This document shows positions 10,234-46,005 of a DNA stretch of 64,000 nucleotides, piece after piece (the first letter of the stretch is position 1; each line of letters starts with the position of its first letter). Both the position numbers and the translations under genes were made by a program. The DNA lies in assembly GCF_006385705.1 (NCBI RefSeq), contig NZ_VFRQ01000002.1:1-64000 (forward strand), in the 5' to 3' direction. The notes beneath the pieces were generated by a model. The model worked only from the letters and a program-made list of their open reading frames with translations. It made no database searches and was not told the origin of the DNA. This stretch comes from Pontibacter mangrovi. Its GTDB lineage: Bacteria > Bacteroidota > Bacteroidia > Cytophagales > Hymenobacteraceae.

Positions 10234-10368
10234 GCCGCAAGTTTGCAACTTGTGGCTTAACATGAGGCCAGTTTATAACTGGCGTATATCAAAACCATAC
10301 TTTCGGCAGTTACAAACTGCCGCCATACCCTACCACCAGTTACCGCTACGCTCAAACTGGCGGTATGG
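10234..10368. repeat. cluster of four AGTT/AACT palindromes (REP-like)
   Basis: GCCGCAAGTT/AACTTGTGGC (10234-10256, one mismatch), GCCAGTT/AACTGGC (10267-10283) and GGCAGTT/AACTGCC (10305-10321) each have a 3-nt loop. A fourth, CCAGTT/AACTGG (10336-10360), is nested in outer arms CCATACC/GGTATGG. All share an AGTT...AACT core, so they look like members of one REP-type family. No gene is present here. Confidence 0.75.
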
Positions 10369-40969: not shown

Positions 40970-44593
<3,624 letters not shown>

Positions 44594-44708
44594 TTTGAAG
44601 ATTTGGAGGTGAGGAGATGTGGAAATGCATCTGCTCATCTGTTAAAGTATAGGACGAGGTATGCTGCTGTGGTGGCATATCTCGTTTTCGTTTTGCCTTT
44701 ACTTACTC

Positions 44709-44768
44709 TGCTCTTTCGGATCTGCTCTTTCGGACTTCCTAGTCCGAAAGAGCAGATCCGAAAGAGCA
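44709..44768. repeat. perfect long inverted repeat upstream of the RAYT gene
   Basis: 28-bp arms (44709-44736 and 44741-44768) pair perfectly around a 4-nt TCCT loop. Each arm contains the unit GCTCTTTCGGA twice, in tandem. It ends 27 nt before the transposase start. There is no T tail, so a terminator role is unlikely. It is a candidate REP-type substrate of the adjacent transposase. Confidence 0.8.
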
Positions 44769-44795
44769 AATTAATTGTTGAGGTATAAAGCTGCT

Positions 44796-45341
44796 ATGAG
44801 CCTCAAAAACAGACTCATACCCGGCGGTTTATACTTTCTCACAATGACAGTAGTGGATTGGGTTGATATCTTTACTCGTCCAGTCTACAAACATATCCTT
44901 GTGGATGCCCTTAAATTCTGCCAGGAGAAGAAAGGCCTGCGACTTCATGCATGGATATTGATGAGTAACCATTTGCACCTGATCGCATCAACGGTAGAGG
45001 ACAAAAATCTCTCTGACATCCTGCGGGACTTTAAGCAGTTTACCAGCCGCAAAATAGTTGCTACCATACAGGATGAGCCGGAGAGCCGCAGGCAATGGCT
45101 ATTGCACCGCTTTGAGTTTAATGCTAAGCTCAACCCAAAAGTACGCCATTACAAAGTATGGCAGGATGGCAATGAGGCAAAAGAGCTCATCAGCAACACT
45201 TTTATAGACCAAAAGCTAAATTACCTACATCAAAACCCGGTGCGGGCGGAGTGGGTGAACGAGCCGGAGCATTACCGTTACAGCTCGGCCAACAACTACG
45301 CCGGAAACTGCGGACTGCTGCAGGTGGAGCTGTTAGAGTGA
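44796..45341 (+). CDS. REP-associated tyrosine transposase (RAYT), HUH family
   Basis: A 181-residue Y1 transposase of the TnpA-REP group. The HUH motif is in WILMSNHLHLIAS (about 51-63), preceded by an IS200-like N-terminus (MSLKNRLIPGGLYFLTMTVVDW). The catalytic Tyr context is KLNYLHQNPVRAEWV near 141-155, and YRYSSANNYAG near 164-174 is the family's C-terminal signature. RAYTs cut and process REP hairpins rather than mobilise large elements. The start 44796 is chosen (ATG, MSLKNR) over an upstream TTG. It lies downstream of a perfect hairpin. Confidence 0.92.
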   Translation: MSLKNRLIPGGLYFLTMTVVDWVDIFTRPVYKHILVDALKFCQEKKGLRLHAWILMSNHLHLIASTVEDKNLSDILRDFKQFTSRKIVATIQDEPESRRQWLLHRFEFNAKLNPKVRHYKVWQDGNEAKELISNTFIDQKLNYLHQNPVRAEWVNEPEHYRYSSANNYAGNCGLLQVELLE

Positions 45342-45678: not shown

Positions 45679-46005
45679 ATGGCTAACAAAGCAATAGAAA
45701 TCACAGACGCTAATTTTGATGAAATCATCAATTCTGATAAACCAGTACTGGTAGACTTTTGGGCAGAGTGGTGCGGTCCATGCCGCATGGTAGGCCCGAT
45801 TGTAGAAGAGCTTGCCGGCGAGTATGAAGGCAAAGCTGTGATTGGTAAAGTAGACGTGGATGCTAACCCACAAACCTCAGCTAAATTCGGTATCCGCAGC
45901 ATCCCAACTCTGCTGGTATTCAAAAACGGCGAGGTGGTAGACAAGCAGGTAGGCGCAGTGCCTAAAAACGTGCTGTCTCAGAAGCTGGAAGCTCAGATGG
46001 CTTAA
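45679..46005 (+). CDS. trxA: thioredoxin
   Basis: A 108-residue cytosolic disulfide reductase. The active site WCGPC is at 31-35, with the family's [23 protein letters not shown] and cis-Pro region [15 protein letters not shown] all in place. No signal peptide. It has its own promoter and terminator. Confidence 0.98.

Follow-up and report, generated by a model that had tools for sequence, protein, structure and literature searches.

A doubled REP hairpin, probably a collapsed array, beside a subclass 2.6-like RAYT gene of Pontibacter

Introduction

In the REPtrons and REPINs of E. coli, Pseudomonas and Stenotrophomonas, a RAYT (TnpA-REP) gene is accompanied by GTAG-tagged REPs in both orientations that carry a 5' foot and have dispersed copies. 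The published TnpA-REP/RAYT enzymes are strand-specific, and the GTAG foot and features of the loop or stem matter to them in differing measure (PMC8266576). The enzymes closest to the one discussed here belong to TnpAY1 subclass 2.6 (RAYT group 5) of the Bacteroidetes, defined by NH[LIV]H, WQ and YIH[QN]NP motifs, a length of about 179 aa and a HUH-Y distance of about 82, and their genes lie beside atypical secondary structures that lack GTAG and have further copies in the genome (PMC6006769). These GTAG-less structures were already known as atypical, and the main texts consulted assign no foot to them. Double-foot REPs, in which the 5' foot is mirrored at the 3' end, have been published for subclass 2.4, with a central deletion between inverted REPs as the proposed origin (PMC6006769). 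Quasipalindrome template-switch mutations (for example PMC7202029) make an imperfect inverted repeat perfect.

The locus compared with these systems lies in a 64-kb window of Pontibacter mangrovi (positions 1 to 64,000 of contig NZ_VFRQ01000002.1). It is best read as a genuine REP/RAYT locus from a subclass that is known but little described, and its doubled hairpin as a private rearrangement, not a new type of substrate. The kind of system is already known; the foot, the anatomy of the array and the tracking of several hairpin families in Pontibacter are new.

Table 1. Features of the dnaE-trxA locus in the window.
Feature	Position	Strand	Remarks
dnaE	40970..44593	+	flanking conserved neighbour
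dnaE terminator-like hairpin	44651..44688	+	T-rich run after; separate element; similar inverted repeat there in most congeners
Doubled REP hairpin, 28-bp arms (collapsed REP array, probable)	44709..44768	.	
Left outer arm	44709..44720	+	read as H1 5' arm of orthologous arrays; alignment of 14 orthologous loci
Inner "double-foot" REP TCTGCTCTTTCGGACTTCCTAGTCCGAAAGAGCAGA	44721..44756	+	core GGACTTCCTAGTCC at 44732-44745, matches dispersed family
Right outer arm and flank TCCGAAAGAGCAAAT	44757..44771	+	collinear with L013 H1' 3' arm TCCGAAACAGCAAA; alignment of orthologous loci
RAYT / TnpA-REP gene	44796..45341	+	181 aa, HUH Y1 nuclease; H59-L-H61, W122-Q123, Y143; intact; stop 45339-45341
trxA	45679..46005	+	flanking conserved neighbour

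The RAYT gene and its neighbourhood

The gene had been called a RAYT transposase from its sequence, and this identification is borne out. The protein matches the NCBIfam model REP_Tyr_transpos (NF047646) with 107.8 bits against a cut-off of 80, as well as Pfam Y1_Tnp, and by both sequence and fold it is nearest to 4er8, the E. coli TnpA-REP bound to a REP hairpin (best PDB match of an AlphaFold model with pLDDT 93). H59, H61, W122 and Y143 are invariant across 56 homologs. With its HUH motif, its catalytic tyrosine and a Y1 fold close to that of TnpA-REP, the protein is a RAYT. Its NHLH, WQ and YLHQNP motifs (the last with I to L relative to the published form), its length and the distance of 84 from H59 to Y143 fit subclass 2.6, judged by the motifs, length and spacing in Table 1 and the text of PMC6006769.

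Comparison with those orthologs for which dS was computable puts dN/dS at about 0.03-0.05, a rough value since dS exceeds 1, and the gene has thus been kept under selection. Some orthologs contain stops. Two more RAYT homologs in the same genome, at G000:C31:124927-125436 (L010) and G000:C34:1148-1339 (L012), have an in-frame stop each, so that at least two RAYT genes of this genome look decayed.

Among Pontibacter RAYT orthologs of at least 75% identity, dnaE adjoins the gene in all and trxA does so too in most; some Rufibacter have both neighbours beside the RAYT as well, and Botryobacter has dnaE. A search for hairpins around this gene family in relatives, which the original prediction had proposed, found REP-type arrays upstream of the orthologs. 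These consist of four small hairpins in an inverted array, H1 H2 H2' H1', two per orientation, and their cores include GGACTTCCTAGTCC, GGATTTCCTAATCC and GGACATCCATGTCC. One locus (L024, the RAYT of G030) differs from the other orthologs in that the RAYT is inverted in the middle of the array, with two hairpins on each side, possibly through an inversion between REP pairs. Elsewhere, another RAYT (L096) has, 473 nt before its start, a palindrome without mismatches that spans about 60 nt (GGAAGCAAGCTAATAAGCTGTTGCTCCCC...), a further long-armed hairpin but one of different sequence.

The window is also rich in the 7-mer AAGTATA/TATACTT, its top 7-mer, which occurs 114 times in 64 kb (for example at 802, 1621, 44645 and 50285), 13.7 times the second-order Markov expectation. 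Seventy-one of the 114 sites are inside ORFs, which cover 81% of the sequence. Pontibacter loci have it at about 1.7/kb, whereas other Bacteroidota, Hymenobacter and Rufibacter among them, have it at 0.06-0.26/kb, and the 7-mer resembles an uptake-sequence-like or highly iterated genus motif.

The doubled hairpin

In place of the four-hairpin array of its relatives, the window has one doubled hairpin. It had been described as a perfect inverted repeat with 28-bp arms and a 4-nt loop, doubled internally in each arm and ending 27 nt before the transposase start, and every part of this description proved exact: the arms (44709-44736 and 44741-44768) are complementary at 28 of 28 positions around the loop TCCT (44737-44740), GCTCTTTCGGA is present twice per arm, and 27 nt separate the end at 44768 from the RAYT ATG at 44796. 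This is the longest close inverted repeat within the window, and the DNA of 44700-44775 folds at -35.8 kcal/mol, whereas 200 dinucleotide shuffles give -6.7 +/- 2.0 (z -14.8).

A search of the genome for further copies gave a divided answer, as the inner core GGACTTCCTAGTCC is dispersed but the doubled arm has a single location. The exact 28-bp hairpin was accordingly dropped as a candidate genome-wide repeat. The tandem TTTCGGATCTGCTCTTTCGGA is absent from the 49 other Pontibacter genomes (50 searched, including its own), and a scan of GTDB r220, which may omit the genome itself, gave no match to the doubled arm before a T-type core.

Alignment with the nearest relative, L013, shows that the right flank of the window hairpin matches the H1' 3' flank, and that the right outer arm departs from the H1' 3' arm by one C-to-G difference (CAGCA to GAGCA), which perfects its pairing with H1. 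Between the outer arms, a single complete hairpin with mirrored feet now stands where the array interior was. All feet of the window hairpin are mirrored and paired inside the perfect stem, whereas ordinary copies have the foot outside the stem or at its ragged base. Given that the doubling is private to this genome, that it replaces the array and that its 5' foot is paired, the nested hairpin fits a mutational product better. Of the proposal of a cognate substrate, the presence of REP-type hairpins at orthologous loci and dispersed in the genome is supported; that the doubled 28-bp hairpin is itself a repeated, conserved substrate is not.

Dispersed cores, foot and families

The genome contains 31 exact core copies, 22 of the T-type GGAYTTCYTARTCC and nine of the A-type GGACATCCNTGTCC, with none for reversed control patterns, and they are often paired or in fours about 30 nt apart. 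These copies elsewhere in the genome would be the likely cognate sites of the window RAYT. The notion that each core type, A-type (GGACATCC) or T-type (GGAYTTCC), belongs to a RAYT lineage of its own was dropped, as both occur in the same arrays about 30 nt apart. RAYT genes with REP hairpins and dispersed copies, the association that makes a REPtron, are found in the orthologs; in the genome under study, the core is dispersed and the window retains only one altered hairpin.

Cores were counted in 37 Pontibacter genomes. A RAYT ortholog is present in 13 of these, which contain 6-101 cores each; the other 24 contain 0-31, with 0-5 in the majority (Mann-Whitney p 1.4e-5). Four genomes without the gene (G017, G018, G025 and G029) still have 11-31 cores, so REPs can persist after the gene is lost or depend on a different RAYT. 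On the dnaE tree the RAYT was gained or lost eight times. With relatedness controlled by independent pairs the trend is one-sided, 3.3 agreeing and 0 opposing when 6 cores is taken as the threshold, but there are only four well supported pairs, with which significance is unreachable. When core counts were compared across genomes, copies of GGATTTGYAATCC did not exclusively follow their own RAYT clade.

The dinucleotide CT is found at -7,-6 before the core in 95 of 99 distinct family copies (CTG 69, CTC 25, CTT 1), and is conserved over 24 different basal stems, while the corresponding 3' position shows no conservation and mostly holds no mirror. CTG also stands in front of 179 of the 213 T-type cores from 13 genomes; at the same position, GCT is present in 97-100% of family L and more weakly in family D. 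By its place, CT(G/C) corresponds to the GTAG foot that other REPs carry, with a presumed role in recognition. The family has the short stem-loop and the conserved 5' foot outside the stem that characterize REPs in general, although the window hairpin pairs its foot, and CTG or CTC stands in 94 of the 99 copies where canonical REPs have 5' GTAG or GTGG. Mirrored-foot cores are rare: 11 were found, in nine of 50 Pontibacter genomes, as against hundreds of ordinary cores.

That there may be several REP-type families had been suggested, and several do coexist. An AGTT/AACT array at 10240-10323 (CAAGTTTGCAACTTG, GCCAGTTTATAACTGGC, CGGCAGTTACAAACTGCCG) belongs to a family that occurs beside another RAYT clade, whose member in this genome (C31:124927) is interrupted by a stop. 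The CCCCTC...GAGGGG palindromes at 102, 5075, 10173 and 17513 are unlike the RAYT-linked families seen here. When the nearest REP core to each of 72 RAYT genes was placed on the RAYT tree, core family changed 17 times (minimum 12) compared with a shuffled mean of 52.2, with none of 200 shuffles as low, a result that partly reflects joint inheritance of loci and uses family patterns defined after the neighbourhoods had been seen. Sister RAYT clades have cores that are similar yet distinct, and matching core families are also found beside RAYT paralogs at other loci.

Origin of the doubled hairpin

The explanation that we consider probable is that of a vertically inherited subclass 2.6 REPtron, whose array in the window was collapsed by an intrastrand template switch into a doubled palindrome that is predicted to be a poor substrate. 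The ancestral locus would have had the RAYT between dnaE and trxA with the array H1 H2 H2' H1'. We infer that the enzyme recognises single-stranded REP hairpins through the core and the 5' foot CT(G/C), and it would cut and rejoin them, seeding copies elsewhere in the genome. Most simply, a replication slippage (14-nt) would have copied the H1 5' arm TCTGCTCTTTCGGA twice; synthesis would have run past the core, the new strand would have folded back on itself and used its own arm as template, and a return to the old template would have followed in the H1' 3' flank. Such a single template switch would explain at once why the arms are in tandem and pair perfectly, why the array interior is gone and why the H1' arm has its C-to-G change. 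With its feet paired in the stem, the hairpin should serve the RAYT poorly. Two-step routes are possible, and a tandem duplication followed by quasipalindrome correction, or a REP-into-REP insertion, would result in nearly the same hairpin.

It is unlikely that the doubled hairpin is instead an active substrate, symmetric between the strands and under selection to be bound by the RAYT, in which double-foot REPs like those of subclass 2.4 would let the enzyme work on either strand. A foot-like GCTC does precede the core on both strands, mirrored-foot cores recur at low frequency (two, and a case with one mismatch, at the same locus in other species), and the published double-foot REPs, with their proposed origin by central deletion, offer a precedent. 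However, the scarcity of mirrored feet, the retention of CT on the 5' side in 95 of 99 copies without a 3' mirror, the restriction of the doubling to one genome and the strand specificity of published TnpA-REP enzymes (PMC8266576) all speak against it.

A regulatory role, either as terminator of dnaE or as a 5'-UTR hairpin damping RAYT translation, is suggested by the great stability of the hairpin and its position 27 nt before the RAYT start, but is quite improbable. Termination of dnaE can do without 44709-44768 because a conserved terminator-like hairpin lies about 20 nt upstream; no T run follows 44768, Rfam gives no match, and relatives have four small hairpins at this place instead. A promoter scan returned two sites, no more than in shuffles.

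That RAYT and hairpins are merely neighbours by shared descent, functionally unrelated, is very unlikely: the locus is syntenic in many species and linked sequences are inherited together, but this does not fit the dispersed copies, the higher counts in RAYT-bearing species, the foot conserved on otherwise divergent stems or the matching families beside paralogs at other loci.

Relation to known systems and implications

The probable template-switch collapse within a subclass 2.6 REPtron can now be set against the described systems. The Pontibacter locus has in common with subclass 2.6, besides the protein motifs and length, the atypical flanking structures and their copies elsewhere, yet it differs from the published account in that the hairpins are defined (a four-hairpin array, a CT(G/C) foot and, within a single genus, about a dozen families of cores) and the window copy is collapsed. 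The REPtrons of E. coli, Pseudomonas and Stenotrophomonas differ in having GTAG in place of CT(G/C), another RAYT subclass and hundreds rather than tens of exact cores. Compared with the double-foot REPs of subclass 2.4, the foot sequence is different and the hairpin is doubled once more, with 28-bp perfect arms. Unlike the quasipalindrome mutations (for example PMC7202029), the change would here have taken place within a REP array and is deduced by comparison only.

Array collapse and gene loss recur at the dnaE-trxA locus, as is shown by solo mirrored-foot hairpins at the same place in congeners without an intact RAYT (L196, L202 and L205) and by RAYT fragments (L194 and L202). The Pontibacter set allows the collapse of arrays and the loss of the RAYT to be followed by comparison at one locus. 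It also offers many related RAYTs, every one accompanied by its matching hairpin family, so that the choice of REPs by RAYTs becomes directly testable. Somewhat more tentatively, subclass 2.6 RAYTs may read a CT(G/C) foot together with a clade-specific core, with some ten parallel specificities in Pontibacter, and the window system may have silenced its own array through a collapse that hides the foot. If these parallel specificities are real, a recognition code could be read from the Pontibacter RAYT/REP pairs.
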